From an uncultured Bacteroidales bacterium (GTDB taxonomy: Bacteria; Bacteroidota; Bacteroidia; Bacteroidales; F082), in assembly GCA_905234645.1 (NCBI GenBank), contig CAJOIS010000008.1:1-64000 (forward strand): 64,000 nucleotides of DNA. The letters are read 5' to 3'. A program made the position numbers and the translations under genes. Below the pieces are notes generated by a model. That model was given only the letters and a program-made list of their open reading frames with translations, searched no databases and was not told the DNA's origin. Below are positions 8,680 to 42,036 of this stretch, in pieces; within the stretch, counting starts at the first letter, position 1, and every line of letters begins with the position of its first letter.

Positions 8680-8687
8680 TAATTTTG
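8680..8687 (+). promoter_or_regulatory. -7 box (TAATTTTG) for the chromate transporter genes
   Basis: TAATTTTG ends 4 bp before the ATG at 8692, so the transcript would be almost leaderless. Confidence 0.55.
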
Positions 8688-8691
8688 CAGC

Positions 8692-9791: not shown

Positions 9792-9843
9792 TTTGTTATT
9801 TGAGATTTGATAACTAGCATCTAAAAAAAACAAGAAACAAAAC

Positions 9844-22450: not shown

Positions 22451-22483
22451 AAAAAATGGGAGCCGAATGGCTCCCATTTTTTT
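22449..22483. terminator. Bidirectional intrinsic terminator
   Basis: Stem ATGGGAGCC / GGCTCCCAT with loop GAAT, flanked by an A run on the left and a T run on the right, so it can end transcription from both the EamA gene and the convergent clpB. Confidence 0.9.
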
Positions 22484-25070: not shown

Positions 25071-25202
25071 ATTTTAGGTTCTCCTTTCTTTCGTTTTGAC
25101 TATGGGACTGAGGGACGGGGGACATAAGACGTCTCGCAGACTCGGGTTCTGGTTCATCAAATTCCCAACCAAATTCATAGCTTTGAAAAAAAGGCATAAT
25201 TT

Positions 25203-25217
25203 GTGACAAAATGTCAC
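25203..25217. promoter_or_regulatory. Palindrome GTGAC-AAAAT-GTCAC upstream of clpB
   Basis: A perfect 5+5 dyad with 5-bp spacer, 133 bp before the clpB start. A related half-matching word (GACAAAATGACA) follows about 40 bp later. Such a site could be an operator, but no regulator is known from the sequence. Confidence 0.35.
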
Positions 25218-25377
25218 TAAATCAAGGGATTAAGGATTGAATTTACGACAAAATGACAATCAAGCTTTAGGGGTCTTTGCAACAGTCGTTGTTTAATTGG
25301 CCGCTAGCAGGCATGTCATTATCTCACTTCGTATCGATGAAATGCTAAGCATTAACTACGTTGAAATCTCTGATTCA

Positions 25378-25420
25378 GCGAAGCTAATCTTCGATTTCGG
25401 CGAAGCCAATCTTCGATTTC
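25378..25420. repeat. Direct repeat, two 21-bp copies, 22-bp period
   Basis: Copies at 25378-25398 and 25400-25420 differ at one base; each ends in AATCTTCGATTTC. Confidence 0.7.
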
Positions 25421-25471
25421 CTGCGCTGGCCCGTGTGGTGGCATGGGATCTATGCCTGCGGATTGGCCGCG

Positions 25472-25526
25472 CCTTCTATATGCCTTCTATATGCCTTCTA
25501 TGTGCCTTCTATGTGCCTTGTATCTG
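25472..25526. repeat. Tandem repeat, five 11-bp units
   Basis: Units CCTTCTATATG (twice), CCTTCTATGTG (twice) and CCTTGTATCTG follow each other without gaps. Confidence 0.9.
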
Positions 25527-25540
25527 GGCAGGAGGTTCTC

Positions 25541-25594
25541 GGCTGCCATGTCATGCCGACGTGGGCTTGTGCGATGGCGGGCATCTATGGCGGC
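25541..25594. repeat. REP-like dyad, family 2
   Basis: An imperfect inverted repeat with outer arms GCTGCCATGTCATGCC and GGCGGGCATCTATGGC. A close relative sits inside the DUF2779 gene at 62636-62690. Confidence 0.6.
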
Positions 25595-25602
25595 GATATT
25601 AT

Positions 25603-28600
25603 TTATTGCGCTTGCAAATAATCCAAGTCGCCCAACATCCTGGTGATGACACTTCGGAAGTCGGCCTTAAAGCCTTCGTTTTGTTGATATTCCTTGTACA
25701 ACGAGTTGTCGCCTTTGCGTTTCTTTCTCATGATCTTGTCGATGATGGTTATCATAAGATCATCAACGGCCTGCTGGTCGGGATTGCCCACCACCAAGGT
25801 CTGGTAATCCTCATCGGCGGCTACAGCTTGTGCGACGCTGACCAATTTCATCTTCTGGTCGTCGGGGGTGGCCTCCCAGCCGTTGAACCAACGGTTGTTG
25901 AACTCTTGAAGGATCACGTCCAAGGGGTCTTTGACTTCCTCCTCCGAGCCTGCGTTGACCATCGTTGGCTTCAGTGGGTCGATAGTGGTCTCACCGGCAT
26001 CCAAGGTGATGGCCTCGTTCAAGGCGGTGCGGCGCAGTCCGTAGGTGTTCAGATCCACCGAATCCAACAAGTCTTTCAAGTTGTCGATGTCAGGGCCTGC
26101 GATGTGTAGGCCCGGAATGAGATAACGCAAGAACCAGAAGAGCTTTTCCCAGTCCTTCATCTCGAAAGGCATGATGGCTGCCACCCTAGAATAGATCTTC
26201 ACAAACTGCTTGCACTTCATCTTGAAATCAGCCTTGCCGTTTTCGGGCCAATCGATCTCAAAGTTGAAACGGTCGGCGGCAGCATCAATGATGGGTGCCC
26301 ATTGGTCGGCAGTGGCGCCATGGATGTACAAACCGATGAATGCGTCAACCTCATCCATGTCGAATACGCCAAACGAGAGCAAAGTGTTCTTCAACTCATG
26401 CAGGATATTGACATCCGTGGCTTCCGACAAAGTCGTGGAGGTGTAGAACGGGTCAAAGGCTTCCTTGATGTCGTCTTGGGTGTTGTAGAAGTCAAGGATA
26501 AACAGGTCTTCACTCAACTTGCCCAAGTCGGGAGCGGAACGGTTGAGACGCGAAAGGGCCTGCACGGCCAACACGCCAGCCAAAGGCTTGTCGACATACA
26601 TGGCGCAGAGCTTGGGTTGGTCGAAGCCGGTCAGGTATTTGTTGGCCACCACCAAAATGCGGTAATCATCAGAGTCGAATTTCTCGGCCGTCTGACTATC
26701 GGGGAAGCCATTCATGCCCGCTTCGGTATAGTCAGACCAAGCAGTCCCGCTATCTTCGGCGGCGATTGAGCCATACAGGTTCTCCGTGATGGGATAGATA
26801 GAGGCCTCTTGATGCTGAAGGCGTTTCTCTCCACTGAAGGCAATCAGAATCTTGTAGGGCAGCTCTTTGTCCGCCACAATCCGATTCAATGCCTGATAAT
26901 ACTTGATGGCGCATTCAATGTCCTTGGTCACCACCATGGCCTTGGCCTTGCCTTTCAGCTTGTGGCTGCGGAACACCTTGGCGTCGAAATGGGTCAGCAT
27001 CACGTCGGCCTTGGCCGCTATGGTCTTCGGGTCGCGTTCCACGGCCCCACGCAACTTCTTCTGCGCCCGCTCGTTGTTGTATTCCGGATTGTCTTCGATG
27101 CTCTTGGTGAGTTCGTAATAGCTACGATAGGTGGTGTAGTTGGTCAGCACGTCGAGGATGAAGCCTTCCTCGATGGCTTGTTTCATGCTGTAGAGATGGT
27201 AAGGATGGAACTTGCCTTCGGCATCCTCGCTGCCAAAACGCTCCAATGTCTCCCTCTTCGGCGTGGCCGTGAAGGCGAAATAGGAGCAGTTGGTGCTCAT
27301 CTTGCGGTCTTTCATCAGTTTCTCCAGCAAGGCGTCGGTGTCGCTGCCGTCGGTGTCGGCATCTTTTTGCACCGTGGCGTTGAGCTTGTCGGCGGCGATG
27401 CCGCTCTGCGAGCTATGCGCCTCGTCGATGATGACGGCAAAGTTATGGTCGCTCACGTCGCTGATAGCGTCGCAGATAAAGGGAAACTTCTGTATCGTGG
27501 TGATGATGATACGTTTGTTGTTCTCAATGGCTTCCTTCAAATCCTTCGAGGTGTCGGCATGGGCCACGATTTTGGCGCTTTGCCCGAACATCTTGATGTT
27601 GTCGGAGATCTGCTTGTCGAGCAGGCGGCGGTCGGTGACCACGATGACGGAGTTGAACAAAGGCGCATCCACGGCTTTGGCTCTCACTGCCTCCATTGTA
27701 TTAGGGCAAGTCTTGATGAGTTTGTAGGCCAGCCAAGTGAGCGAGTTGGACTTGCCCGAACCGGCAGAATGCTCGATGAGGTAGGTCTTCCCCACTCCCA
27801 TTTCCGCCACATCGTTGACCAACTTGCTTACCACATCCAGTTGATGGTAGCGCGGAAAGATCAGCTTCTTGGCGTTCTTCATGATGTGCGGCACCTTCTT
27901 CTGGGTCTTGGCCTCGTCGTAGTCGAAGCAGACGTAGTTCATGATGATGTCGGCCACGGTGTCCTTTTGCAGGATTTGTTCCCACATATACGAGGTCTTG
28001 TAGCTACCTTCGGCGTTCATGGGATTGCCTGCGCCCTGGCCGTTGGGCAGACCCTTGTTGAAAGGCATGAAATAGGTCTTGTCGAGGTTGAGACGTGTGG
28101 TGAAAAACACCTCGTCCTTGTCCATGGTGAAATGGGCGAGGCAACGGCCGAAGTTGAGCAAGGTCTCTTTGGGGTTGCGTTCCGTGGACTTGTATTGCTT
28201 TTGCCCGTCGTATTTGGCGGTTTGGTGTGTCCAAGGGTTCTTAAGCTCGAAGGTGAAGATAGGCAAACCGTTGACGAACAGTACCATGTCGATTTCCAGA
28301 CCTGGGTTGGCGACCGAGAACGTCTGCTGGCGGGTGAGCGAGAACTGGTTTTGGGCATATTTCAGCTTTGAGGTCTCGCTGTCGGCAGCCGAGGGTTTGG
28401 GGTAGAACAGCGAAAGATGGATGTTGTCCACATCCACGCCTTCGCGCAGCACCTTGATGATGCCGAAGGTCTCGATGTCCTTCGAGATGCGCTTAGGCAG
28501 TTCGGTTTTCAGGTCCTTGCCTTTGTATTCTTTCAGCACATCGTTTTGTGTGCTCTCAAGAAAAGCCCACAGCCGCCGCAGGTCGATGGCCAGTTTCTTG

Positions 28601-28779
28601 TCCATGTCCTTGGGCAGGCCCCAATAGTATTGTTGCGCGTTGGGCGACTGGGCTTCCACGTCGTTCTGCCCGCTCGCCGTGCGTTCCTCGTGGGTGCTGC
28701 CCACTAGGGCTTTCTCTATCAGTGCCTCGAAGGCTTGTTCGTTGGTTTTGGATAAGTTCATCATTAGCTTCAAATTCAT
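25603..28779 (-). CDS. hsdR: Type I restriction enzyme R subunit HsdR
   Basis: 1058 aa from ATG at 28779, chosen because it overlaps the upstream stop by ATGA; an earlier in-frame TTG is less likely. The N-terminal nuclease site is D164, E178 and K180 (EIDMVLFVNG...FTFELKN). Walker A is HSAGSGKSNSL (339-344), the DEAH box VIIDEAHSSQ (452-455), and FTATPK follows, completing a superfamily-2 translocase. It cleaves unmethylated DNA after ATP-driven translocation, together with HsdM2S. It is the last gene of the seven-gene operon and keeps the GC of the core genome, unlike the four genes just upstream. The gene appears intact. Confidence 0.95.
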   Translation of the reverse strand: MNLKLMMNLSKTNEQAFEALIEKALVGSTHEERTASGQNDVEAQSPNAQQYYWGLPKDMDKKLAIDLRRLWAFLESTQNDVLKEYKGKDLKTELPKRISKDIETFGIIKVLREGVDVDNIHLSLFYPKPSAADSETSKLKYAQNQFSLTRQQTFSVANPGLEIDMVLFVNGLPIFTFELKNPWTHQTAKYDGQKQYKSTERNPKETLLNFGRCLAHFTMDKDEVFFTTRLNLDKTYFMPFNKGLPNGQGAGNPMNAEGSYKTSYMWEQILQKDTVADIIMNYVCFDYDEAKTQKKVPHIMKNAKKLIFPRYHQLDVVSKLVNDVAEMGVGKTYLIEHSAGSGKSNSLTWLAYKLIKTCPNTMEAVRAKAVDAPLFNSVIVVTDRRLLDKQISDNIKMFGQSAKIVAHADTSKDLKEAIENNKRIIITTIQKFPFICDAISDVSDHNFAVIIDEAHSSQSGIAADKLNATVQKDADTDGSDTDALLEKLMKDRKMSTNCSYFAFTATPKRETLERFGSEDAEGKFHPYHLYSMKQAIEEGFILDVLTNYTTYRSYYELTKSIEDNPEYNNERAQKKLRGAVERDPKTIAAKADVMLTHFDAKVFRSHKLKGKAKAMVVTKDIECAIKYYQALNRIVADKELPYKILIAFSGEKRLQHQEASIYPITENLYGSIAAEDSGTAWSDYTEAGMNGFPDSQTAEKFDSDDYRILVVANKYLTGFDQPKLCAMYVDKPLAGVLAVQALSRLNRSAPDLGKLSEDLFILDFYNTQDDIKEAFDPFYTSTTLSEATDVNILHELKNTLLSFGVFDMDEVDAFIGLYIHGATADQWAPIIDAAADRFNFEIDWPENGKADFKMKCKQFVKIYSRVAAIMPFEMKDWEKLFWFLRYLIPGLHIAGPDIDNLKDLLDSVDLNTYGLRRTALNEAITLDAGETTIDPLKPTMVNAGSEEEVKDPLDVILQEFNNRWFNGWEATPDDQKMKLVSVAQAVAADEDYQTLVVGNPDQQAVDDLMITIIDKIMRKKRKGDNSLYKEYQQNEGFKADFRSVITRMLGDLDYLQAQ

Positions 28780-29360
28780 CTGCAATAAGCAACAGGACGA
28801 AATTCAGAATGGCATTTGTGAAGATTCACGGCCTCCAAATCAAAGTTTTCCACTTCATTGTCCTTGGTCATTCTCTTATTACTTCTCTCTTCTTTGATGA
28901 TAATTCTACGAAACTGAACTTTATTCGAATCAAAATCTGGAAGTCCATTTTCCTCTCTTATACGCTCCGCCGATTGCAAAATGAAATCAAAAAAAGTACA
29001 TGATGCCTCTATTTGTTTATCTGCACCATCAGTATCACCACGCTTCATTTCTAGAAAGAACACAAACAATCCTTTAATGTGCTGTACTAGCAATATATAG
29101 TCACAAAAACGGTTTAATCCTTCTGGTGCCTTAGGCTCAACACTTCTCTGATTGAAAAAAGGGAAGAGATTATTCACATTTTTGTCCGCGGTATTGAAAC
29201 AATAAAGTTTCATATCCAAAATAGACCGAGTATCATTTTTAATGTCCACCCGTTGCTCTTCATGTAACAAATCGAAAGGCTCAACCATTGTCAATGCGTC
29301 ATCCCCTTTTTGCAAGAAGTCTGAGTTAAGAATCCACTCAAAATAATCTATGTATTGCAT
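28776..29360 (-). CDS. Small protein with PD-(D/E)XK-like core, partner of AAA15 ATPase
   Basis: 194 aa, not recognised as a named family. It contains a candidate nuclease core: D87 in FCDYILLV, then E104 and K106 in LFVFFLEMKRGDT, followed by a helix with Q116 (DKQIEAS). This order (D, E-x-K, then Q in a helix) matches restriction-endonuclease-like folds. The C-terminal part (VQFRRIIIKEER) is basic. It starts 3 bp after the ATPase stop and overlaps the hsdR start by 4 bp, so ATPase, this protein and HsdR are co-translated. The likely role is the effector of the ATPase. The nuclease assignment is inference from motif order and needs a fold prediction. Confidence 0.6.
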   Translation of the reverse strand: MQYIDYFEWILNSDFLQKGDDALTMVEPFDLLHEEQRVDIKNDTRSILDMKLYCFNTADKNVNNLFPFFNQRSVEPKAPEGLNRFCDYILLVQHIKGLFVFFLEMKRGDTDGADKQIEASCTFFDFILQSAERIREENGLPDFDSNKVQFRRIIIKEERSNKRMTKDNEVENFDLEAVNLHKCHSEFRPVAYCR

Positions 29361-29363
29361 AAC

Positions 29364-30632
29364 TCAGTTATTTGGGTGGTCGTACTTCAAAACTTCATAG
29401 AAGGTGTTCGTCACATCGTTTTGGCTATTGATGGCCTCGTCAATGGAAGGCATGTTGAATCCATACCTATCCACTTCAAGCGGTTCCACTTTCACTTTGC
29501 CATTTTCGCTCTTTTGGAACAGATAAGGAGCAAACTTGTCTTGTGACAAACAAAGGCTTTCATCATACCCCTTGTTTGTAAAAATCTTGTCACCAGCCTT
29601 GTTCAACCCATCAGCCATAATCATATTGTTGATTTCACGAATGATATAGTCACTATGGGTGCTGATAACCAAACGCAGACCCGCATTAATCATCTTGACG
29701 AAAACTTTGGCCAAAAGAATCTGATTCTTCGGATGAAGATTCAGTTCGGGCTCATCTACAAACAAGAGGTTGAATTGTCCTGCTGAATAGCGCAAATAAA
29801 ACACCAGCGGTGCTAGTGTTTTGATTGCTGACGAGGACTCATTGAAGCCGAGCTCGGTATCTTCTGAAACATGGTATGAAATCTCGCCTTCATCCGAAAC
29901 AGTTAGATTGCCATGCAAAATCATCCGTTCAATCTCAGCAGCAAAAGCACCATCGTCAAAGGTAATTCTATTTTTACTCGTCAAATCGGCTGCATCTGCC
30001 AATCCATCTGCAATAGGTCTAGGATATCGAACATTAAGCCGCTCTTCAGGATTTCTAAGTCTTCCCACTGACAATTCCTTGCTGAAAGTATAGATGCCGC
30101 TACGTTCAGCAGTAAACATTTTGGCAAGAATTATACCATCAAAATACAAAGCTGTTATCAAGAAAGATTGCATAACCTGCAGTTCACTTCCACCTACCCC
30201 TCGCAATTCAATATGATAATTCAAAGAATTTGATTTTTTTACAACCTCATCGGACCATAATGACACAGCCCTTTTCAACAATTCCTCTCTCCATTCTTCT
30301 TTTGTAGTAACAATTTCACATTTGAACGAATCTTTCTGGATATTCAAATTCATATACGATAGAATATCATTCTGTCGATTCTTAAGAAATGTATCTAATG
30401 AATCATATAATTCATCAGCATTCAATTCCCCCTCAATATTATTTTCAAATCTTTGTAATACATGCAACCCTAGTGAATCAATATATACAGAAATCATGGA
30501 AATCAAGGTGTAAAGATAAGTCGCCGCATAGGTTTTCCCCGTTCCATTGTCGCCAGCAAAAAGGATAAATGGTTTCGACATATCAATTACCATCGAATCA
30601 ATAGGGCCGAGATTTGAGATTTTCAATTTCAT
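29364..30632 (-). CDS. AAA15/ABC-type ATPase in the type I R-M operon
   Basis: 422 aa. Walker A is GDNGTGKT (27-34); FNESSSAI (263-270) is at the signature position; Walker B is LLFVDEPELNLHP (289-301); the switch histidine is H326 in VISTHSD. This is the SMC/RecF-like, AAA15 type of ATPase with an inserted helical region at 60-250. No TOPRIM domain is attached, so it is not a classical OLD nuclease. Such ATPases act as sensors that release a nuclease (for example in PARIS and Septu systems, and RloA in Campylobacter type I loci). Here the adjacent 194-aa protein is the natural effector candidate. A promoter-like box at 30661-30668 suggests independent expression. Confidence 0.85.
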   Translation of the reverse strand: MKLKISNLGPIDSMVIDMSKPFILFAGDNGTGKTYAATYLYTLISMISVYIDSLGLHVLQRFENNIEGELNADELYDSLDTFLKNRQNDILSYMNLNIQKDSFKCEIVTTKEEWREELLKRAVSLWSDEVVKKSNSLNYHIELRGVGGSELQVMQSFLITALYFDGIILAKMFTAERSGIYTFSKELSVGRLRNPEERLNVRYPRPIADGLADAADLTSKNRITFDDGAFAAEIERMILHGNLTVSDEGEISYHVSEDTELGFNESSSAIKTLAPLVFYLRYSAGQFNLLFVDEPELNLHPKNQILLAKVFVKMINAGLRLVISTHSDYIIREINNMIMADGLNKAGDKIFTNKGYDESLCLSQDKFAPYLFQKSENGKVKVEPLEVDRYGFNMPSIDEAINSQNDVTNTFYEVLKYDHPNN

Positions 30633-30660
30633 AACTATTCAGTTTTATCACTCGAATTTG

Positions 30661-30668
30661 CAAAAATA
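30661..30668 (-). promoter_or_regulatory. Internal -7 box (TATTTTTG) before the ATPase gene
   Basis: Minus-strand TATTTTTG, 29 bp before the ATPase start, in the only sizeable gap (80 bp) of the defence operon. It would allow ATPase, 194-aa protein and HsdR to be made separately from the upstream genes. Confidence 0.5.
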
Positions 30669-30712
30669 GTATTTTTTCATTTACTACGCTCTAGCATTGT
30701 ATTTTATCACAA

Positions 30713-33700
30713 CTAATACTCTAAATCATCAATACGTGATTCATTGTCCATCTGCACCGCCATTCTTCTATTCTCATTAATCAAATCTTCAAATATTCTG
30801 GTCATTCTTGGATATAACAGTTTCGTCTTTTCTTTATACTTCTCTAACTCTGATACCATAGCACGTTCTTGATTTCCTCCTCCCCCACAAAAATGCATTC
30901 CTCGGCTATTTAATCTAATTCTAATATGTAGGTCAACTTTATCACTACCCAATCGTTCAACTATCTCGCATAATGCTTTGGGCGGATAATTATCATCCCT
31001 TGGAATGTCGCCCAAAATACTGCCAACCACAGAATCAATAACCTTTAGCCTTTTCCTTTCTTTTGCCAACTTATACAATTGGTCAATGTATTGATTCATA
31101 AATTGTTCATTCAGTGTCCCCTTGTCATCTATAAATGAAACCAGATTTCGACCAAACAACATAATATGAATAGCGCACTCACCTAATGTTTTTCTGTTTG
31201 TAGCAGCAACGCCTTCCAATTGCTCCACTATTCCATCATCAGGAACATAAGCCAACTCCACAAGCTGTATCATCAATTCGGGATTACGTGACAATTCTTT
31301 TACAAATCGTGTATTGGACATATTCATCCGCTCATGTTCCAAAACCCTATACAAAAGAAACTCGACATACACCAAAATCCTTATTACTTCCGGGTCTTCT
31401 GATTTGTCCAAATCTTTCAAAAATGACACAATATAATGTGTGTCTAATTGAGACTTTGCCGATGCACTTTTCATAAGATAAGAATAGAGTATTTTAACAA
31501 TCTCTAAATCATCCATTTGAAGCGATTCGCGAGAAAAGTACATGGTAGTCAGTGCCTGTGAAAATCTGTTTGCCTTCATCAATTCACGAACAACGTTGTC
31601 AACATCATCTTTAACTAAGCCAACATTAACAGATTCCCAATAGAGGCGTTTGGTTTCTTCACCACGATCTGCTGCGATTTTTGCCAATCCTTCAACATAT
31701 CTTGGCGCATATAAAACTATTGTCAAATCAGCATTCTTTGCAATAATCTGTGCCGCCAATTCTTGGTATTTTGCTATGTCATTATAGCATAAAACATTCA
31801 GGAAGGACCTCGTAAAACTCTCGCTTAATTCATCAGCCTGATATTTTTGACAAACCTCATCTAAAAGGCTGTCACCAAAAACTGAAACAAGGCTTTCCGA
31901 AACACGTTCAGGACATTTCACGATTTTGAGGAGTTCCCAAATGCTGTCACGCCCCATCGAATCAATTATTTCCACAACCACCTTAATACGAGCTTCTCTC
32001 AATCTTTGAACTTCTTTGTCATAATCCCAATCACCTTCAAGAGGCAATTGCACATAAAAATCCTCAAACAGCCATGCGTTTTTATGCATAATGTCTTTTG
32101 GTCCTATCTCGTCAAGCAAGGCTTGATAAGGTTTCAATTCCATTTCGCTTAACGACCAATCAGTATCAGGATATGACAAATGATGGTTGATGTCTTTCCT
32201 CAACACATCCACAACGACTTGAACGTCATCTGACCCCGCCAAATGCTCACGTACCGTTCCCAATATCAACATTCTAACATCACCCATACTCACTTGAGTA
32301 GATAATGTTATTAAATCCTTGATTGCTTCGGTCGAATAGTCACAACGCTGTAACATAAGTGCCACTACATTTTTCAATTGTTCAAGGGACATTCGATCGA
32401 CGTTTTTTGATGAGTTTAACTCGCCAAACAATCTCCATCTATAATGATGATTTGTATCTAACACACATCCAGATAAAGATTCACATATCTTCTTACAAAT
32501 CTCATAAACAATGCTTTGATATTTTGACGCGTATGCATTCAGAATTGTCATTCGTTCTTTATACGAGGCATAAGTCTGTGGCATAAATACACGAAAGATG
32601 TTATACAAGGAATTAACTGGTTTGTTATCGAAATTGCTTTCATTCTTATACTCCGAATACTGAAATAGAAGATTTGTAACACGGTTAAGATAATCCACAT
32701 CCCAAGCAAGCATCTCAAGTGAAAGCAGGACTTCCGTATACGAAATCTCCCATCCAAATAATGAATGCTCTGGCTGTCGAGGAGTAAAAACCACATCAAG
32801 AATGTCCTTAGGCAATTGTTCCAAAAAACTAAGGAATTCTTTTGGAGAAGCCTCTGCCAATTCAGTCAAATAATGCTTATTCGACAAGAACCTTGACAAA
32901 TTCCAACCTTTTAACAATTCTTTTACTGTTTCATCAACCCCAAATGTAAGTTTTTTGTCGTTAGAATCATCAACTATTGACAACAAACAAAGGCTTTGAT
33001 AAACACCCTCTTTAATGGTTTTGGAATACTTTTGTTCGAATTGCCTGAATTGAAAATCGCCAGTATTAGCTCTGTCAACGGCTTCTGGGTCATCATCTTG
33101 AATTAAACAATGACAAACATCCCTAAACTTGTCCAGAATTGATGTTGTCAACATGGCTTTGGCATATTCTATCGATTCAAAGGGTGAGCGAATACGCCAC
33201 ATATTTCCAATGTGAATCAAAGGCGTCTCTTCTTCCAATAATAACGCTTTTAGTTTTAATTCGTATTGGTCATAATCCATACCCGATAAAGCCGCCAATA
33301 CCGTTTTGTCTCCTTCTATGTTAGCTAACCATTTTCCAACAAGAAAAGCTGGGAGCAGTTCAGCAAGCGTGTTTGGATCAGCCCAGTTAGGTTTGTCTAA
33401 TTCTATCTTTTCCCTTCTTCTAAACACATTGATGTCGCGGGCCGTATCTTGTGCAATTACCCTTGCCTTTGCATCATCAATTCCAATCTTTACCAACGCT
33501 TTGACGAACCCCTCTTTTTCAATAATGGGCAAAGTAACAGCATCTTTTATCTGGTCAGCTGGCGTTGATGCGACAATAACAGAATGCCCACGATTTGTTG
33601 TATAATTAAGACTTTCTGTAACCGTAGTCAAAAGAGCAAGATTGTCATAATGCTCCACCAAGTCTTCGTATGCATTCTTTTCTGTTACAACAACAATTCT

Positions 33701-34414
33701 TGCCTTTAGCTTTTCCGCGTTTTCATTAGTCAAAATGCTGGCTATCGCAAATGCTACTCCTTCACTTTGAGTAAGCGCATTAAGAACCAGCGAACCAGCC
33801 ACCTTACAAGTATCCACAACTTGTTTACTAACATCTTCCCTTCCAGGCAAGATTATTTCATATGGCAAAGCCAGTTTCTTACCCTGTGCCCATCTGTTCC
33901 AATATGTTTCAGGAAGCATATAACCGCCTGATGGCAGAATTCTCAATTTCTCGGCTAACCACATTCCAACAGGTGGCCTATTCTCTATCCATCGCTCCAA
34001 TTCAACCGCAGTATAGACAATGACTTTCTTCCATCCATTTTGATGGTCTCGCATCCATTCATCAGCACCTTCCCATATTCTCGGAGTAACTAACACAAAC
34101 GTAGAGATACTTTTATCATAGCCCAAAGGATCATTTTCTCTAACGCCAAAATCATGATTGATTTTTCCTTGCTTATCCTTTGTCGCACCGCACTCCCATA
34201 ACGAAATGCCCTCTGGAACAACATCTATGCCTTCATTACATGACACAATGCCGTCCCATCCATGAACACTTACCGCATCCCCTGACGGGAACGACAACCT
34301 ATCAACACTTGTCACAGAAGTCTCAATCAATCGTCTAACAAGTTCTGGTAACAATTGTTGGCATTCTTTTGTATCTGCCCACTGCTTCAAATGTGTTGAA
34401 GTGATGAATTTCAT
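30713..34414 (-). CDS. Large defence-island protein with candidate N-terminal PD-(D/E)XK domain
   Basis: 1233 aa, AT-rich. The first 150 residues contain SVHGWDGIV (D54), ISLWECGATKD (E74, with lysines at 79, 81 and 84), and a later VTPRIW and VYTAVELERWIENRP block. I have seen this arrangement in large bacterial defence-type proteins, where a nuclease-like domain is joined to a long NTPase-like or helical region. Residues 190-330 look Rossmann-like (KARIVVVTE, GHSVIVAST), but no Walker A motif is visible. The remaining 850 residues are helical and repeat-like. It is probably a sensor with a fused nuclease. It follows apeA by 23 bp and is separated from the ATPase by a gap with its own promoter. 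The family name is uncertain. Confidence 0.6.
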   Translation of the reverse strand: MKFITSTHLKQWADTKECQQLLPELVRRLIETSVTSVDRLSFPSGDAVSVHGWDGIVSCNEGIDVVPEGISLWECGATKDKQGKINHDFGVRENDPLGYDKSISTFVLVTPRIWEGADEWMRDHQNGWKKVIVYTAVELERWIENRPPVGMWLAEKLRILPSGGYMLPETYWNRWAQGKKLALPYEIILPGREDVSKQVVDTCKVAGSLVLNALTQSEGVAFAIASILTNENAEKLKARIVVVTEKNAYEDLVEHYDNLALLTTVTESLNYTTNRGHSVIVASTPADQIKDAVTLPIIEKEGFVKALVKIGIDDAKARVIAQDTARDINVFRRREKIELDKPNWADPNTLAELLPAFLVGKWLANIEGDKTVLAALSGMDYDQYELKLKALLLEEETPLIHIGNMWRIRSPFESIEYAKAMLTTSILDKFRDVCHCLIQDDDPEAVDRANTGDFQFRQFEQKYSKTIKEGVYQSLCLLSIVDDSNDKKLTFGVDETVKELLKGWNLSRFLSNKHYLTELAEASPKEFLSFLEQLPKDILDVVFTPRQPEHSLFGWEISYTEVLLSLEMLAWDVDYLNRVTNLLFQYSEYKNESNFDNKPVNSLYNIFRVFMPQTYASYKERMTILNAYASKYQSIVYEICKKICESLSGCVLDTNHHYRWRLFGELNSSKNVDRMSLEQLKNVVALMLQRCDYSTEAIKDLITLSTQVSMGDVRMLILGTVREHLAGSDDVQVVVDVLRKDINHHLSYPDTDWSLSEMELKPYQALLDEIGPKDIMHKNAWLFEDFYVQLPLEGDWDYDKEVQRLREARIKVVVEIIDSMGRDSIWELLKIVKCPERVSESLVSVFGDSLLDEVCQKYQADELSESFTRSFLNVLCYNDIAKYQELAAQIIAKNADLTIVLYAPRYVEGLAKIAADRGEETKRLYWESVNVGLVKDDVDNVVRELMKANRFSQALTTMYFSRESLQMDDLEIVKILYSYLMKSASAKSQLDTHYIVSFLKDLDKSEDPEVIRILVYVEFLLYRVLEHERMNMSNTRFVKELSRNPELMIQLVELAYVPDDGIVEQLEGVAATNRKTLGECAIHIMLFGRNLVSFIDDKGTLNEQFMNQYIDQLYKLAKERKRLKVIDSVVGSILGDIPRDDNYPPKALCEIVERLGSDKVDLHIRIRLNSRGMHFCGGGGNQERAMVSELEKYKEKTKLLYPRMTRIFEDLINENRRMAVQMDNESRIDDLEY

Positions 34415-34437
34415 ATTCTTCCCTCCTTTTCTAACGA

Positions 34438-35730
34438 TTATTCAAATCCAAACAAATGAGTTTCTATCATCTTACTAATTGGTGAATCCTCACAACACAA
34501 ATTAATCTCTTCATTTGACAAGTCCATCATGCTAAGGATGCAGCATGCCAACAGTATCTTGCACTTTTCCGTAAGCCAATACAATTCATCACCGTCAACA
34601 GCTAATGATTTCTCGTCATCTGGATAGAGGTGAGAGTATTTATTGCGGGTATCACACAGTACTTTGGGATCGATATTGCACTTTTGAACCATTTCAACAT
34701 CTTTGAATTGTTTCAAGAGTATCTCTATCTGTTTTTCGTATTTCCTATGATCCTTACCGTTTTTCTTATTGACAAAACGCTTGTGAAAACCGTCAAGAGC
34801 CTGAGCAATAATTAAGAAATCAGGGACATTAAACGTCTTCTTCTTTTGAAGAGATTCTATCAAATAGCTACTGATTGGTGCAATTTTGTCATAACACTCA
34901 TGCCATAACTTAAGCATAGTTGGCACTTTGTCTTTTAACTTTTCAAATTTTATCAATTTGCTATTTAATGGATCAACGGACTTATCCACCTCATAAAGCA
35001 GCATCATTTCTACATTTTTCGCTTTATTGGCAAACCTTATCTTATTTGGATTTTGTTCACCATATAAAGCTATGGACAAGAACTGACAAAACTCCCCGAT
35101 ATGATTTAGAAATCCCTCTATTGAAACGGGTTTTGTGGATTCTATCAACAACTCAGTTGTTTGGGTGATATTCAAGTCATAGGACGTGCGGTTTTGGTAG
35201 AACTTATCTCGTAACACCCATTTCATGCCATCCTCAACTTGCGATTCGATCAAACGATTATCAGCTCCTGGATCTACAAGAACATGGCTGTGGGTATTCC
35301 CGTTTCTTGTATCAATCAAATTATCACGAAAAGCCCAATTTCTTAAGTAAGGGAATTGCACAATACATTTGTCATAGTGAGGTTTTCTCATCGAAATCAA
35401 ATGTTCTCCAACTAAAATCAACCCAACAATAAACTTGGTTTTCGTGAAATCGCCCTTGAACTCTTTCTCCATCACCACGTTAAATAAAGAGAAAACCGCT
35501 CCGTTAGCTGTCACACCCCACATAACATTGTTATAACCATCCAACATTGCATGAAAATCACTTGGGATATGATATAGCTCCAACGTAGATTCTCCGTCTT
35601 CGCAATAAGTCAAAGTACCCACATGACGCTTCTCGTGCCCGACAGGGATAGTCAGAAAAAGTTGATTGCGAGGATTCGACTGTGCTGGCACCCACCATTC
35701 ACCATGAAATATTTTTGGTTCACCGCTCAT
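34438..35730 (-). CDS. apeA: ApeA-type HEPN anti-phage protein
   Basis: 430 aa, AT-rich. The N-terminus (FHGEWWVPAQSN, VGTLTYCEDGESTLELYHI) matches the ApeA N-terminal domain, which begins with a similar GxWW block and a beta-rich fold. The C-terminal HEPN domain has the catalytic R-x4-H motif at R362-H367 (DTRNKYSHLYP). ApeA is known as a single-gene abortive-infection system whose HEPN RNase acts on infection. Here it sits inside a type I R-M operon: its start overlaps the hsdS stop by 4 bp (ATGA), so it is translated together with HsdS. The call is firm for the HEPN motif and good for ApeA. Confidence 0.8.
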   Translation of the reverse strand: MSGEPKIFHGEWWVPAQSNPRNQLFLTIPVGHEKRHVGTLTYCEDGESTLELYHIPSDFHAMLDGYNNVMWGVTANGAVFSLFNVVMEKEFKGDFTKTKFIVGLILVGEHLISMRKPHYDKCIVQFPYLRNWAFRDNLIDTRNGNTHSHVLVDPGADNRLIESQVEDGMKWVLRDKFYQNRTSYDLNITQTTELLIESTKPVSIEGFLNHIGEFCQFLSIALYGEQNPNKIRFANKAKNVEMMLLYEVDKSVDPLNSKLIKFEKLKDKVPTMLKLWHECYDKIAPISSYLIESLQKKKTFNVPDFLIIAQALDGFHKRFVNKKNGKDHRKYEKQIEILLKQFKDVEMVQKCNIDPKVLCDTRNKYSHLYPDDEKSLAVDGDELYWLTEKCKILLACCILSMMDLSNEEINLCCEDSPISKMIETHLFGFE

Positions 35731-36998
35731 ACCACCTTCACCTTTCCCGTCACCACTTCATTGATGATGATCTGCTTCCGCTCCTGAAGAAGGGAGATTT
35801 GATTTTTACAATTCCTAACAACTTGGTTTATTTTGCCTGTCTCTACATCAAGATGCTTTACGATGTCTTTCTGTTCCTTTATCGAAGGTAATGTGATTTG
35901 AAGATTTGCATATTTTTCAGCACCAATATTTGGAATTGTGGCCTGAATAAAAATGCTCTTTTTCCAATTATCGTAAATTCCTGACTTGGTATAATAATCC
36001 AAATATTCAGGTAAAAGGGGTTCTTTCAAACTGGCTTTAATTAGGTAGCCAGCAAAGCAGGCTTTAATATCTTCATTAAAAAGATATGTCTTTCCTGCCG
36101 TCGCACCACTTCTCGCAAACAACAATTCTCCTTTCTTCAACAAATAGGGTTCCGCCTTTTTTGGTGGCAAAGAACGAAAAGTGTCAGGTCTTAATTTACC
36201 ATCTTCATCAATATCTGTAATCCTGATATATCTTGGATACGATTCATCTTCGCTTTCTGCACTTTCATTTGCGCCATACATTAAACTAGCTTTTAGCAGG
36301 TGTTTCAATCTCCTCACTTCCCACCCCTCCGGCACCTCTCCAATCCATTCCACGCCGCTGTCTTTCATTTTCGCGTTGGGGTTGAGGCCTTTGGTTACGG
36401 CACGGTTGATGATGATTTGCTTGCGCTCGTTCAAGAGGTCGATCATCTTCTGCTGCTGCGCTATGGCGGTGTCTATCTTCGCCATTTTTTCATCAAGATA
36501 TTCTACAATCGCATCTTGTTCTTTGCGTGGCGGCAGCAACGAAACGACTTGGCCAAAATCATCCGTGTACATACGCCATCTCGAAGGTATCACTCCCGAT
36601 GAGTGTCTGGCAAACTCCGCCAAATAAAGAGGTGTTTTGTACAGATAATGAAGATATTTAGGATTGGAATCTTTTGTAAGTTTATAAACACAATATGCTG
36701 GGCTGACAATTCCATCATATTTTGAAACTCCCAAACCACCCATCCAAGCAAGCATTATATTTATAACGAGGTCATTCTCCGAAACAATTTTGTATCCTTT
36801 CAAAGACTCACTTCTTGAATCGCCTTTTGCGGGGGTAATGCCATCGTATTGCGAAACAGACAATAATTCTTCATTTCCGTTCTCCGAGATAGAAAACGAC
36901 TCTTTCCATAAGTACTTGGATTTAATCATTTCCCAATGGCTTGGGATCTCTCCGAGCCATTTCACGCCGCTGTCCTTGTATGTATTGTATCGTTGCAT
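35727..36998 (-). CDS. hsdS: Type I restriction enzyme specificity subunit HsdS
   Basis: 423 aa with the expected two-fold layout. Target recognition domain 1 (about 20-150) and domain 2 (about 225-360) are separated by conserved helices. The repeat KDSGVxWxGExPxxWE occurs at both N-terminal halves (residues 11 and 212), and ERKQIIIN ends both conserved helices. The two recognition domains are AT-rich while the conserved helix is GC-rich, as is common where recognition domains are exchanged. It recognises a split DNA site and gives the methylase and nuclease their specificity. The gene lies 5 bp after hsdM and overlaps apeA by 4 bp. Confidence 0.95.
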   Translation of the reverse strand: MQRYNTYKDSGVKWLGEIPSHWEMIKSKYLWKESFSISENGNEELLSVSQYDGITPAKGDSRSESLKGYKIVSENDLVINIMLAWMGGLGVSKYDGIVSPAYCVYKLTKDSNPKYLHYLYKTPLYLAEFARHSSGVIPSRWRMYTDDFGQVVSLLPPRKEQDAIVEYLDEKMAKIDTAIAQQQKMIDLLNERKQIIINRAVTKGLNPNAKMKDSGVEWIGEVPEGWEVRRLKHLLKASLMYGANESAESEDESYPRYIRITDIDEDGKLRPDTFRSLPPKKAEPYLLKKGELLFARSGATAGKTYLFNEDIKACFAGYLIKASLKEPLLPEYLDYYTKSGIYDNWKKSIFIQATIPNIGAEKYANLQITLPSIKEQKDIVKHLDVETGKINQVVRNCKNQISLLQERKQIIINEVVTGKVKVV

Positions 36999-37003
36999 AA
37001 GGC

Positions 37004-39334
37004 TTACATCAGATTAAACAATGACTGGATAAACCCTTGGCTCTGGCGGTCGAGTTCGAGGATGTCGCGCTCGTTCTCTTCAAGCGTGCGCAACGGCACG
37101 GGCTTGTAGAAATACTTGTTGAACGAGATTTCGCAGCCTATCTTGGTCGGTGGCAGATTGATCCACGCATCGGCCACATAGGGACACACCTCGCGCTGGA
37201 AATATGCATAGATGTCTTCCTTCACAGGAATCTTCTCCGTGTCGCGCAGGTCGCTGTCACTTTCGTATTCTACATATTGGCAAATGTAGCTACCCTTCTC
37301 GCCAGGATAATAGCCATAGTCCGCCAAACGCTTCTCATCCACACCGAAGGTGGTCAGCAGTTTCTCCACCTCCTTGCTGCCCACTTTGTGTTGCTTCTTG
37401 ACGACAGGAGCAGCCTCGGGGTCGGTCACCGACATGGCTCGGGCGATGGCATTCAACTTGTTGCCTTTCACGTCCAACTTCAATGTCTTGGCCGCAGCCT
37501 CAATCTTGGCGACAAACAGGTTGTAGTCCATGAAGACTTCAGTGCCGATGGCATGCATCAGTTGCTTGGCCGCATCCATCAAGTCGCGGCGGCCCTGCCA
37601 TTCCTTGACGCTGATGAGTTTCGCCAGCTTCTTGTCGGTCAGCTTTATCTCGTTGTCGTTCAAATACTCCTTGATGTTCGGGATTTCAGCGTCCAAACCT
37701 TCAAACACTTGATTGCCGTAGGTTTGGTACAGCCATTTCGAGAGTTCGAGTTCGCCGTTGTCGTATAGCATCTCATCGATTTTCAGGGCACTGAACTGGC
37801 TCTTCAAGCGCAACGGCCGCTCGATGGTGACATTGTAGAAGCGGAAGTCATCGCCGTCGAAAATCTTGGAGGCCACCTTGTCGCCATCGGCTTCCTTTTC
37901 CACGAAGTCCATGTAGGTCTTCAGGATGGTAGAACGATGTTCGGGCGTGATGGTGCAGTTGCGCGAGCCTTGGTTTTTCCTCAGTTTCTCAAAGGCCTGC
38001 GATGCGTCGATCAGTTGCACCTTGCCTTTGCGGTTTTCAGCTTTTTTGTTTGTGAGCAGCCAAACGTAAGTAGTGATGCCTGTGTTATAGAAGATGTTGT
38101 TCGGCAATTGGATGATGGCATCCACCAGGTCATTCTCAATCAGATAGCGACGGATGTTGCTCTCGCCGCTGCCCGCGTCGCCCGTAAATAATGACGACCC
38201 GTTGTGGATGGAAGCCACGCGGCTGCCTTGGGGCTGGAATTCCAAAGGCTTCATCTTGTCGACCTCTTCAAGCATAAACAGCAGTTGTCCGTCGGAAGTG
38301 CGTGGTGTGCTGTCAAGCACCTCTTCTTCGCCGGCGAAATTGGTCAACAGCAGTTCAAAACGGTGATCGAGCAGCGTCTTCTCGTGGTAAATTTTTTCCT
38401 TGTCGGTCTTCCATGACTTGCCGTATGGCGGATTGGTGATCATGTAGCCAAACGACTTGTCGGAAAAGGCGTTGTCGGTGATGGTGTTGCCCAAGTGCAT
38501 CCCACCCGGGTCGACGCCCTTGATAATCAAGTCGGACTTGCAAATGGCGTAGGTCTCCGGGTTGATTTCGGTTCCCGACAGTTGTATGGCCGCACTCCTA
38601 ACGCCAATATCCATAAGGTATTCGCGACTTTCCGTCAACATTCCACCAGAGCCACATGCCGGGTCGTACAATGAGATAATCTTGGGAAGGTTGTCCTTCA
38701 CGGGTTCAAAAACAAGGTGGGCCAATAACGAGATGGCATCGCGGGGCGTAAAGTGCTCGCCAGCTTCCTCGTTGTTCTCCTCGTTGAAACGACGCAGCAA
38801 CTCCTCAAACACAGTGCCCATGCCGATGTTGGTCATGGCGGGCAGCATGATGCCATCGGGGTCTTTCACCTCCTTGTCCGTCAGGTTAATGCGCGGGTCA
38901 GTGATTTTCTCGATGATGGACAAGAGCCTATCGTTATCGGCCAGTTTGCGTGCCTTGTTGTAATACTCGAAGTTCTTCAACACATCGCGCACGTTCTCGC
39001 TGAAGCCGTTAAGGTATTCTATGAAATTATCGTAAAGGATGTCGTTGTTGTCCGAAGCCTGTGATTTCAGTCGGTTCAGCGTCCATTTGCTGGTATTGAA
39101 GAAACTCAAGCCAGTGATGTCTTTCAGCACGCCTTCGTCCAGATTCTCCAACCCACTTTCCTTGATTTCCTGTTCCACTTCTTCCTTGGTAGGCTCAAGC
39201 AAGGCATCCAAACGGCGCAACACCACCATGGGCAAAATCACATCACGGTATTGGCCACGCAAAAACACATCGCGCAGCACATCGTCGGCTATCGACCAAA
39301 TAAAAGAGACTATTTGATTATGAGAGGTTTCCAT
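37004..39334 (-). CDS. hsdM: Type I restriction enzyme methyltransferase HsdM, with long C-terminus
   Basis: 776 aa. The HsdM N-terminal helical domain (1-165) is followed by EHFTPRDA (193-200), the SAM motif DPACGSGGML (224-233) and the catalytic NPPYG (301-305), which identify an N6-adenine methylase. After the usual domain ends near residue 490 there are nearly 290 more residues, much longer than classical 500-550 aa HsdM; related long forms exist in Bacteroidota. It methylates host DNA at the site chosen by HsdS. It is the first gene of the seven-gene leftward operon, with a -7 box at 39365-39372. Confidence 0.94.
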   Translation of the reverse strand: METSHNQIVSFIWSIADDVLRDVFLRGQYRDVILPMVVLRRLDALLEPTKEEVEQEIKESGLENLDEGVLKDITGLSFFNTSKWTLNRLKSQASDNNDILYDNFIEYLNGFSENVRDVLKNFEYYNKARKLADNDRLLSIIEKITDPRINLTDKEVKDPDGIMLPAMTNIGMGTVFEELLRRFNEENNEEAGEHFTPRDAISLLAHLVFEPVKDNLPKIISLYDPACGSGGMLTESREYLMDIGVRSAAIQLSGTEINPETYAICKSDLIIKGVDPGGMHLGNTITDNAFSDKSFGYMITNPPYGKSWKTDKEKIYHEKTLLDHRFELLLTNFAGEEEVLDSTPRTSDGQLLFMLEEVDKMKPLEFQPQGSRVASIHNGSSLFTGDAGSGESNIRRYLIENDLVDAIIQLPNNIFYNTGITTYVWLLTNKKAENRKGKVQLIDASQAFEKLRKNQGSRNCTITPEHRSTILKTYMDFVEKEADGDKVASKIFDGDDFRFYNVTIERPLRLKSQFSALKIDEMLYDNGELELSKWLYQTYGNQVFEGLDAEIPNIKEYLNDNEIKLTDKKLAKLISVKEWQGRRDLMDAAKQLMHAIGTEVFMDYNLFVAKIEAAAKTLKLDVKGNKLNAIARAMSVTDPEAAPVVKKQHKVGSKEVEKLLTTFGVDEKRLADYGYYPGEKGSYICQYVEYESDSDLRDTEKIPVKEDIYAYFQREVCPYVADAWINLPPTKIGCEISFNKYFYKPVPLRTLEENERDILELDRQSQGFIQSLFNLM

Positions 39335-39364
39335 TGGGGAAAGAATTCAAAATGATTAATTTTA

Positions 39365-39372
39365 CAAATATA
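39365..39372 (-). promoter_or_regulatory. -7 box (TATATTTG) for the hsd/defence operon
   Basis: Minus-strand TATATTTG 31 bp before the hsdM start. It lies in an AT-rich 120-bp gap shared with the divergent DUF3667 gene. Confidence 0.55.
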
Positions 39373-39426
39373 CAATTTTTTCTACAAACACAATCATTTA
39401 CAGCCAAAAACAATCGTTATTTTCCC

Positions 39427-39434
39427 TACCTTTG
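39427..39434 (+). promoter_or_regulatory. -7 box (TACCTTTG) for the DUF3667 gene
   Basis: TACCTTTG fits TAnnTTTG and lies 21 bp before the ATG at 39455. Confidence 0.5.
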
Positions 39435-39454
39435 CCTCGAAAAACCCGACTGTT

Positions 39455-40366
39455 ATGGAAAACGAAATACAGAATATAGCGCAAATCGACGAAATACAGA
39501 CTGAGTCTCAGACCGATATACAACCCGAAACCCAACCCGAACACAACACCACCAAATGCCTCAACTGCGGCACCGAGTTCGAAGGCAATTTCTGCCCCGA
39601 GTGCGGACAGAAAGCCGACACAGGGCGCTTCACGATGCGTTTCATCATCGAGAACCTCATCGCGGCTTTCACAAGCAAGGACGGCGGACTCTGGTTCACG
39701 CTCAAGAACCTCTTTAGCCGCCCGGGGGCGATGATTGTCGAAATCCTCAACGGCAAGCGCAGAAGCTACTTCTCCCCCTTCCCGATGCTGTTTTTCGCCC
39801 TCACGGTCTATATCCTGCTGTTCACTTTCACAGGCAGTCAAGGCAATATCCAAGCAATGGAGCAAGAGATTAGGGAATCCGAAATAACGGCCAGCTCCGA
39901 TATGGACGAGAAAACCCAAATGGCATTTTCACGCTTCAATGAGATACAAAGGTTAGTCGGTCAAGGATTCAAGATATACTACACCCACTACACTACCGTC
40001 ACCATGCTGACGATTCCCCTTTTCCTTTTCGCCACCAGGGCATGGTACGGTAAAAACAACAGAAAACGCTATTACAGGGCCGAGTATATGGTCGCCATCG
40101 CCTATTCGATGGTCATGGTGGTCCTCTACCGATGTCTGACCAGCCTGGTGTTTCTCTTTTCGAAGGATGCCGAGGATACCATGCTTATCTTTATCCCCTT
40201 TGTCACCATTGTGGCCTTTACCGCCTGCTTCCGACGGATGCTGGGGTTCAGCATCGCCAAAACCGCTTGGAGAAGCATATTGGCGTTGGTGTTGTATTAC
40301 ATAATTCTAGGGATTATTCTCCTTATCGCATGCTTTGCCATATATGCCATCCTCTTCAATGGCTGA
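39455..40366 (+). CDS. DUF3667 zinc-ribbon membrane protein
   Basis: 303 aa. An N-terminal acidic, glutamine-rich stretch precedes a zinc ribbon (CLNCGTEFEGNFCPECGQK, four cysteines), the conserved RFTMRFIIENLI block, and about five membrane spans in the C-terminal two thirds. This matches the DUF3667 family common in Bacteroidota. The function is unknown; it is probably an inner-membrane protein. It is divergent from hsdM. Confidence 0.8.
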   Translation: MENEIQNIAQIDEIQTESQTDIQPETQPEHNTTKCLNCGTEFEGNFCPECGQKADTGRFTMRFIIENLIAAFTSKDGGLWFTLKNLFSRPGAMIVEILNGKRRSYFSPFPMLFFALTVYILLFTFTGSQGNIQAMEQEIRESEITASSDMDEKTQMAFSRFNEIQRLVGQGFKIYYTHYTTVTMLTIPLFLFATRAWYGKNNRKRYYRAEYMVAIAYSMVMVVLYRCLTSLVFLFSKDAEDTMLIFIPFVTIVAFTACFRRMLGFSIAKTAWRSILALVLYYIILGIILLIACFAIYAILFNG

Positions 40367-40387
40367 ATTGCGGTAGGATAATTACGC

Positions 40388-41890: not shown

Positions 41891-41940
41891 TTGTTATTCG
41901 TTTTTTTTACTACGAGACTGCGAGACTACGGGACGCAAAC

Positions 41941-42036
41941 CAACTCCTAACTCCTAACCGAACAACTATCAATTGTCAATTGTCAATTGTCAATTATCAA
42001 CTCTCAACTGACTCTAAACTCTAAACTCTAAACTAA
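41941..42036. repeat. Heptamer repeat tracts between trkH and DUF2750
   Basis: Consecutive tracts of 7-mers: CTCCTAA (twice), AATTGTC (about four times) and CTCTAAA (three times), with small irregular joints. Confidence 0.8.

Follow-up and report, generated by a model that had tools for sequence, protein, structure and literature searches.

Introduction

Type I restriction-modification (RM) operons are known to carry additional genes, and prrC, rloAB, tgvAB and darTG2 are already in print as examples. According to the accessible portions of the respective reports, the effector gene prrC lies inside the type I operon EcoprrI at the prr locus of Escherichia coli (PMC3874165); a foreign defence module is found between hsdS and hsdR in the RptR-RMS-DarTG2 island of enteropathogenic E. 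coli, at a site termed a "potential recombination hotspot" by its authors (PMC12255303); a two-gene defence system, TgvAB, belongs to the VPI-2 type I cluster of Vibrio cholerae, and its protection persists with an HsdR nuclease mutant (PMC11411939); the two genes rloA and rloB of Campylobacter jejuni M1 are numbered between hsdR and hsdS (PMC2928727); and in Staphylococcus aureus, hsdMS and defence genes are spread by lateral transduction (PMC12829572). A general question is how defence systems of unrelated kinds are brought together in a single operon. Here we describe a type I operon that likewise carries inserted defence-like genes, in a stretch of 64,000 nucleotides (hereafter, the window) from an uncultured Bacteroidales bacterium (assembly GCA_905234645.1, contig CAJOIS010000008.1, positions 1 to 64,000 of the forward strand). 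Between hsdS and hsdR it holds an ApeA-like gene, a gene for an Avs-like protein of 1233 amino acids (aa), named X1233, and a two-gene PD-T4-4 system. We propose, with a probability of roughly 0.6, that the hsdS-hsdR gap is a swap site where these three modules were likely collected by recombination between operons, and that each of them would act as a separate anti-phage layer next to restriction. The proposal builds on family identities, recurrence, gap variability, separate module histories, decayed copies of hsd gene ends in relatives and a conserved box upstream of the PD-T4-4 pair.

Results

Organization and Recurrence of the Operon

The operon (25603-39334, minus strand, as for all its features below) consists of seven open reading frames (ORFs) in the order hsdM-hsdS-ApeA-X1233-AAA_15-194-aa-hsdR. 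This order on one strand, proposed in a preliminary description of the locus, was borne out, every ORF lying on the minus strand where it had been placed. hsdM and hsdS are 5 bp apart, hsdS and the ApeA gene overlap by 4 bases, 23 bp separate ApeA from X1233 and 3 bp separate AAA_15 from the 194-aa gene, which itself overlaps hsdR; the short gaps or overlaps reported earlier are therefore there, but the 80 bp between X1233 and AAA_15, the longest spacing in the operon, had gone unmentioned. The four inserts (GC content 36.6–38.8%) are indeed more AT-rich than hsdM (51.3%) and hsdR (53.3%), and hsdS stands at 41.0%. Pfam and PADLOC confirmed the identities of hsdM, hsdS, hsdR, ApeA (ApeA_NTD1 plus HEPN_Apea) and AAA_15. 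When the four inserted proteins were searched against defence databases, ApeA, the ATPase and the 194-aa protein were matched, and X1233 was left without any Pfam or NCBIfam family at E ≤ 0.01. The inserts had been presented as four extra defence genes: they are defence-like by PADLOC and Pfam, but the AAA15 and 194-aa genes constitute one two-gene PD-T4-4 system, so that the four genes amount to three modules in place of the "at least two back-up effectors" first suggested, X1233 standing for an Avs-like family that has no name.

With an X1233 alignment as query, 67 loci were recovered from a set of one genome per species (loci carry L numbers here; L145 lies on the same contig as L081 and L146 on the same contig as L076, and each such pair was counted once). 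The genus-mate locus L076 reads hsdM-hsdS-ApeA-X1233-AAA-B194-hsdR, B194 being the 194-aa protein, and is identical in order to the window. L081 reads hsdM-hsdS-458aa-X1233-AAA-B194-hsdR, L077 reads hsdM-327-hsdS-303-X1233-AAA-B194-hsdR with a broken AAA frame, and L036, in a genome of the same genus, reads hsdM-hsdS-458aa-ApeA-AAA-B194-hsdR, without X1233. Since the order is identical in L076 and nearly so in L081, L077 and L036, it is not due to chance, and the earlier interpretation is partly supported, in that defence-like genes recur in type I operons of other genomes. AAA-B194 is the sole cargo after hsdS in L171. Across L036, L076, L077 and L081 identity is 94–99% for hsdM and 86–96% for hsdR, and hsdS and most cargo differ more. 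Eleven close loci, the window counted, show nine different gap contents, and only one other locus matches the window's. X1233 itself has matches in 7 of 99 genus genomes, the window's counted: the three matches at ≥86% identity are all within the hsdS-hsdR gap and the four at 24–32% are outside this operon, the one in L181 adjoining other hsdS- and hsdM-like genes.

The modules have been shuffled among loci with near-identical hsdM and hsdR, and their histories are separate. The synonymous distance (dS) between the window and L146 is 0.24 for hsdM and 0.33 for hsdR, and 0.096 for X1233; between the window and L171 it is 0.84 for hsdM and 0.147 for AAA; and between the window and L143 it is 0.33 for hsdM, 0.93 for AAA and 0.056 for B194. 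hsdS is highly variable among loci, with a nonsynonymous distance (dN) of 0.24–0.66 vs 0.006–0.12 for hsdM. For X1233, AAA and B194 a dN/dS of 0.06–0.20 in 14 measurable pairs supports purifying selection on these three genes; the ratio was unmeasurable for ApeA in 3 of 3 pairs because dS was saturated, as it was in two B194 pairs.

The PD-T4-4 Pair and Its Promoter-Like Box

The first gene of the pair (29364-30632) encodes an AAA_15 ATPase of 422 aa (PADLOC PD-T4-4_A 3.8e-59, AriA 2.4e-22) with the Walker A motif GDNGTGKT and the Walker B motif LLFVDEPE, and the second (28776-29360) encodes B194 (PD-T4-4_B 2.8e-11), whose E-x-K motif, EMK at residue 104, is retained in 8 of 8 copies examined. 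An AAA_15 ATPase gene is thus followed by a PD-(D/E)xK-type gene and both subunits match the PADLOC profiles, which at the level of sequence identifies the pair as PD-T4-4; PDC-M47A/B were matched as well, more weakly. In a sequence search of solved structures the ATPase matched UvrA, and the 194-aa protein had no match.

Within the 80-bp gap before the pair lies a predicted promoter-like box, TATTTTTGC (30660-30668), of the form TAnnTTTGy, the consensus of a Bacteroidota-type -7 box. The box is present 35–37 nt upstream of the PD-T4-4 ATG in 8 of 8 close copies, where the upstream neighbour is X1233 (four copies), ApeA (two) or the end of hsdS (two), and shuffled gaps give such a box in 2–5% per gap. 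As the eight copies are related, they provide footprint evidence and not eight independent tests; a distant copy (L173, 36% identity) has no box in the 220 nt upstream. The box would drive the PD-T4-4 pair together with hsdR, separately from hsdM-hsdS-ApeA-X1233. Another predicted box, TATATTTGT (39364-39372), lies upstream of hsdM, where TAnnTTTG is found in 10 of 10 genus-level loci. In L172 (3361-6000) an intact pair with its box stands between end pieces of hsdS and an interrupted 5′ piece of hsdR; across the 15 kb retrieved no match to hsdM turned up, and hsdS and hsdR survive there only in pieces. The own box of the pair and its intactness in this wrecked locus make it doubtful, judging from the sequences, that the whole operon is co-expressed as one unit, which had been put forward earlier in the words "expressed together".

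These loci also bear on a guard model, according to which the inserted proteins would stay inactive, restrained by the restriction complex or in its vicinity, until a phage inhibits restriction and so triggers them, as with PrrC in EcoprrI and with PARIS, which senses an anti-restriction protein. In the available text of the sources, prrC sits in a type I operon and is released upon T4 infection (PMC3874165), and both PrrC and PARIS are presented as guardians of RM (PMC12707154); moreover, the PD-T4-4 ATPase scores with AriA of PARIS and the gene pair adjoins hsdR. Against this, L172 keeps the intact pair and box with hsd fragments only, and in 27 of the 68 loci counted for the X1233 family no ORF of ≥100 aa lies on the same strand within 300 nt (some being cut by contig ends, L097 and L114 being near hsd genes, and L076, L077, L081, L107, L128, L139 and L142 being left out of the count). 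The rapid turnover of gap content would in addition make a fixed interface with HsdMSR hard to keep. We consider the guard model unlikely; a dependence of the inserts on restriction is unproven and partly contradicted by the PD-T4-4 pair that lacks hsdM in L172 and by the X1233 kin that lack close neighbours.

Occupancy and Contents of the hsdS-hsdR Gap

At the class level 37 of 395 genomes contain HsdR relatives (1e-60), at the order level 32 of 393 (1e-100) and at the family level 25 of 173 (1e-100); from these, 16, 20 and 19 neighbourhoods, respectively, were fetched, mostly the best-scoring ones with contig room. Together with the window and L077 this made 57 neighbourhoods, and 47 complete loci were left after removal of eight incomplete ones (mostly at contig ends) and of two with a short hsdS (L157, L161). 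With gap ORFs of at least 70 aa called mechanically, the hsdS-hsdR gap is occupied in 42 of the 47 (40 of 45 without the window and L077, which had been selected by X1233) and contains 92 ORFs; the hsdM-hsdS gap is occupied in 18 of 47 and contains 26. The 120 gap ORFs, two of them from an excluded locus, form 60 clusters.

Gap-protein scans covered 84 of the 88 proteins of at least 150 aa from 46 non-window loci, near copies of the window's modules among them. Among the 25 of 33 Pfam families shown, GmrSD_N is matched by 12 of the 84 proteins, AAA_15 by seven, SLFN_AlbA_2 by five, and RhuM, YhcG, PIN_8, ApeA and Fic by three each, and one gap protein of L144 matches TmtA at 2e-212. The 458-aa protein, which belongs to PIN_8, recurs as gap cargo (L036:7833-9209, L143:10827-12203, L145:8495-9871); its L036 copy has no PADLOC match at 1e-3, and it is a candidate for an unlisted defence gene.

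Such contents might reflect plain clustering into defence islands, with insertions tolerated in an expressed, dispensable operon, no functional link and no special entry route. The control, 84 of 199 flanking ORFs matched in length, favours this and counts against a special role of the gap, as the flanks are also rich in defence genes: 202 PADLOC families were matched by the 84 flanking vs 239 by the 84 gap proteins, the commonest family occurring in three flanking vs eight gap proteins. Clustering does not, however, explain why the hsdS-hsdR gap is filled so much more often than the hsdM-hsdS gap (42 vs 18 of 47), nor why a profile search finds in each gap only the ends of the adjacent hsd genes, bar one match in a split hsdS, and we hold it to be quite unlikely.

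Junction Scars Between Cargo Genes

Between the cargo genes of some gaps lie non-coding stretches that copy the 3′ end of hsdS or the 5′ end of hsdR. In the hsdS-hsdR gap, an nhmmer search with profiles of six gene ends (E ≤ 0.05) detected the 3′ end of hsdS in L036 (1e-10), L143 (three matches, the best at 1.7e-10), L150 (within the range of 1e-10 to 7e-10 that covers the strong matches of these three loci) and L037 (1.9e-4), and hsdR 5′ ends at cargo junctions of L144 (1.5e-17), L038 (6.6e-4) and L145 (0.019), seven loci in all; the match in L145 and two of the three in L143 (0.006, 0.007) are weak, and one of the L143 matches sits between hsdS and the first cargo gene. The hsdS-end copies in L036, L143, L150 and L037 end at most 3 nt from the next cargo start. 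No hsdM end, hsdR 3′ end or hsdS 5′ end was found by the profiles in the hsdS-hsdR gap. The hsdM-hsdS gap gave hsdS 5′ ends in L143 and L150 and a single hsdS 3′ match, which falls inside the hsdS of L037, itself split. When 51 segments of 90 nt from inside hsdM and hsdR served as a control, two weak same-strand matches appeared in the hsdS-hsdR gap (E 0.043 and 0.0048) and one opposite-strand match in the hsdM-hsdS gap.

Two pairs of loci look like a junction before and after a gain. In the window the hsdS 3′ end runs into the ApeA start codon (35727-35796), as it does in L146, and its homologue in L036 and L143 is a non-coding scar before ApeA, preceded by the 458-aa gene; over the 79-nt ApeA-start junction, 60 (L036) and 58 (L143) bases match the window, compared with 4–33 at seven other cargo starts. 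Likewise, the hsdS end runs into PD-T4-4 in L171, and L143 has ApeA, a scar and PD-T4-4; in the alignment of the L171 junction with the L143 scar, which includes a long near-identical stretch, 99 columns match, 19 mismatch and 27 are gapped.

In a self-query test, cruder than the profile search, each locus's own gene ends were compared with 40 controls in 42 loci. The hsdS 3′ end scored above every control in 8 of 42 loci and the hsdR 5′ end in 7 of 42, and the hsdS 5′ and hsdR 3′ ends did so in 0 of 42 each. Self-query matches lying in or across genes were rejected as chance: those in L046, L052, L054, L048 and L073, those of the hsdR end in L036 and the window, and that of the hsdS end in L143; L143 was retained on its nhmmer junction matches. 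An hsdR 5′ match in L037 was dropped, since it lies just upstream of a late-starting hsdR ORF and is probably the gene's own 5′ end, and a weak hsdS 3′ match in L043 and hsdS 5′ matches inside hsdS-like pieces of L072 and L037 were not counted. A polarity with the newest module beside hsdS is not claimed, as the hsdS 3′ scars fit it and the hsdR 5′ scars are neutral. In the hsdM-hsdS gap, cargo is flanked by hsdS 5′-end copies in L150 (operon-strand 8283-10411) and L143 (8332-8401), so that this gap may fill by a similar route.

Several observations weigh against scars as traces of module gain. Both hsdM ends exceed the controls too, in 2 of 42 loci each; 8 of 15 inspected self-query matches lie in or across genes; internal hsdS 90-mers exceed the controls in 21 of 454 cases, about twice the ~11 expected by chance; of the 23 loci whose gap contains at least two ORFs, only 7 show scars; and in the gap of the window itself no scar is detectable (scores of 28 for the hsdS end and 35 for the hsdR end, with a highest control of 38). 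A scenario in which hsdS or hsdR had been duplicated, as hsdS is in phase-variable type I loci with multiple copies, and the scars were remnants of the duplicates, unrelated to the gain of cargo, is very improbable: duplicated hsdS genes are known (PMC7394358, as far as its accessible text goes), L037 and L072 contain extra or split hsdS pieces and the internal hsdS rate is slightly above chance, but the internal matches score below the strong scars, the hsdS 3′ end rate is about four times the internal one, four hsdS-end copies end ≤3 nt from the next cargo start, and hsdR 5′ ends are also found, with internal hsdR segments absent beyond two weak matches.

In the recombination that we propose for the swap site, two related operons with different cargo would recombine unequally or fuse in tandem, the hsdR′ and hsdS′ between them would disappear, and the hsdR 5′ end, the hsdS 3′ end or both would remain between cargo A and cargo B as scars that decay over time. 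A broader joint reading, to which we give somewhat less than even odds, is that type I operons are accretion machines fusing at hsdS 3′ and hsdR 5′ ends, each fusion adding a module and often a new specificity gene, with scars recording the stacking, and that X1233 represents a new Avs-like nuclease family that has lost its nucleotide-binding loop. As for function, HsdMSR is predicted to cut unmodified DNA; the HEPN domain of ApeA, once triggered, would cut RNA; the helical array of X1233 would bind a phage protein and release the nuclease domain as in Avs, without ATP binding; and the PD-T4-4 ATPase would control its E-x-K partner. Some module could still respond once restriction had been evaded.

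X1233, an Avs-Like Protein

In the structure model of X1233 (30713-34414; pLDDT 87.3), residues 1-148 (33971-34414) have a predicted PD-(D/E)xK nuclease fold of FokI type, residues 163-340 (33395-33928) a predicted AAA+/STAND-type fold without a P-loop (VIA-align, Foldseek), and residues 341-1233 (30716-33394) form a long helical repeat array, a predicted sensor (model secondary structure to residue 1200; HEAT-type matches). The modelled chain would thus combine, as in Avs, an N-terminal effector domain, an AAA+-type domain and a C-terminal repeat array. Foldseek ranks Avs4 first for the whole chain (E 9.1e-6) and AVAST5, Avs3 and Avs4 first for the N-terminal model; VIA-align scores for the latter are 8.8 with ClpC, 8.7 with ClpB, 8.2 with Dark and 8.0 with Apaf-1. 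In the nuclease domain D54 and E74 are invariant in 71 of 71 alignment rows and K84 is present in 70 of 71.

The likeness to Avs has points against it. The TM-scores to Avs are low (0.07–0.32, and 0.15–0.17 for the whole-chain match to Avs4), no Avs chain is among the 50 VIA-align rows listed, and ClpB/ClpC and clamp loaders score equal or better. Nuclease activity is uncertain because G76 occupies the place of the lysine that usually follows E74. The Walker A P-loop (G-x4-G-K-S/T) is absent from X1233 of the window and from the copies in L145, L146 and L077, and two of the 71 alignment rows carry the motif (positions 443 and 155), in each case off the expected strand; for lack of this loop the protein is named Avs-like and not an Avs. 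None of the PADLOC Avs profiles is matched by X1233, only PD-Lambda-4_A at 4e-4 and 2e-3, and a sequence search against solved structures gave nothing convincing (best E 0.61).

Among the candidates scored, 251 homologues were found at E ≤ 0.001, spread, by record titles, from Bacteroidota to Proteobacteria, Firmicutes and an archaeon. Plasmids hold distant kin only (22 records, all <60% identity) and phages one partial match. Two relatives stand behind a helicase and an Eco57I-type methylase (L078:2553-13708) or a helicase and a PglZ protein (L080:5077-13708), which suggests a wider link of X1233 with methylation-type defence.

The hsd Genes, the ApeA-Like Gene and the Insertion Site

hsdM (37004-39334) encodes a type I N6-adenine methyltransferase of 776 aa (Pfam N6_Mtase 8.5e-54, HsdM_N 1e-25; PADLOC MTase_I 4e-245) with a readable NPPY motif; hsdS (35727-36998) encodes the specificity subunit of 423 aa (PADLOC Specificity_I 4e-119); and hsdR (25603-28785) encodes the restriction/translocase subunit of 1060 aa (Pfam SWI2_SNF2, T1R_D3-like, HSDR_N), in which a D...ELK motif is visible. 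The likely hsdR start is the ATG at 28779, overlapping the 194-aa gene by 4 bases, and its score against TIGR00348 is 203 bits, under the cut-off of 284.55. With hsdM, hsdS and hsdR all present with their motifs, the type I gene set appears complete.

The ApeA-like gene (34438-35730) encodes a HEPN protein of 430 aa with ApeA_NTD1 (2.8e-22) and HEPN_Apea (2.9e-15), both above the Pfam cut-off; its best PADLOC match is PDC-S58 (3e-35), followed by Cas13-ApeA. The Rx4H motif reads RNKYSH at residue 362 and RHKYSH in three relatives. An ApeA N-terminal domain joined to a HEPN domain with Rx4H would make it an ApeA/PDC-S58 protein, and a sequence search against solved structures gave nothing convincing (best E 0.096).

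Around the operon (window 22482-42000) the arrangement is that of a ~14-kb insertion between clpB and a DUF3667 gene. L147 and L148 have operons with other cargo at the same site, and in 4 of 16 clpB loci of genus-mates compared (L186, L190, L196, L198) clpB and DUF3667 are 33–181 nt apart, without an operon, the edges in L190 being ~33 nt apart. The outer flanks have little or no match in most genus-mates. In L193 (genus-mate G836), which has no HsdR match at 1e-100, a stretch resembling the window's hsdR 3′ end lies beside clpB (the query ended at window position 25700), which would fit a loss or replacement of the operon at that place. Insertion by a mobile element was considered and set aside, there being no tRNA in the window and no integrase family among nine flanking genes scanned.

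Discussion

If the proposed collection of modules at the swap site is right, scars made from the operon's own gene ends would be a physical record of module gain without a dedicated integrase, and comparison of strains would make the process testable through junction scars. The X1233 family would in addition be a large, conserved and unnamed candidate immune protein. The literature searched on gap cargo, scars and the families, in the portions of the sources available, held no scars of hsd ends, no survey of the gap in Bacteroidales and no X1233 family.

Compared with the known systems, the locus shares a principle and differs in content. In EcoprrI one gene is tied to the restriction complex, whereas the window has three unrelated modules, of which PD-T4-4 outlives the hsd genes in L172. 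RptR-RMS-DarTG2 carries a different module, and the accessible part of its description mentions neither scars nor a mosaic of modules (PMC12255303). The effector of TgvAB is, in the text available, of GmrSD type, whereas the cargo of the window is HEPN, Avs-like and PD-T4-4, although GmrSD genes do occupy the same gap in relatives. For rloA and rloB no function is inferred in the accessible text of PMC2928727, and the likeness drawn here to the window's cargo is one of gene position. With Avs4 and AVAST5, its top Foldseek matches, X1233 is predicted to share an N-terminal effector-type domain, an AAA+-type fold, possibly of STAND kind, and a long helical array, and it differs from Avs in having no P-loop, low TM-scores and no solved structure that its sequence matches below E 0.6. 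PD-T4-4 was reported, in the part of the source available, in an element resembling an integrative and conjugative element (PMC9519451), whereas the pair of the window lies inside a type I operon, its last gene overlapped by hsdR.

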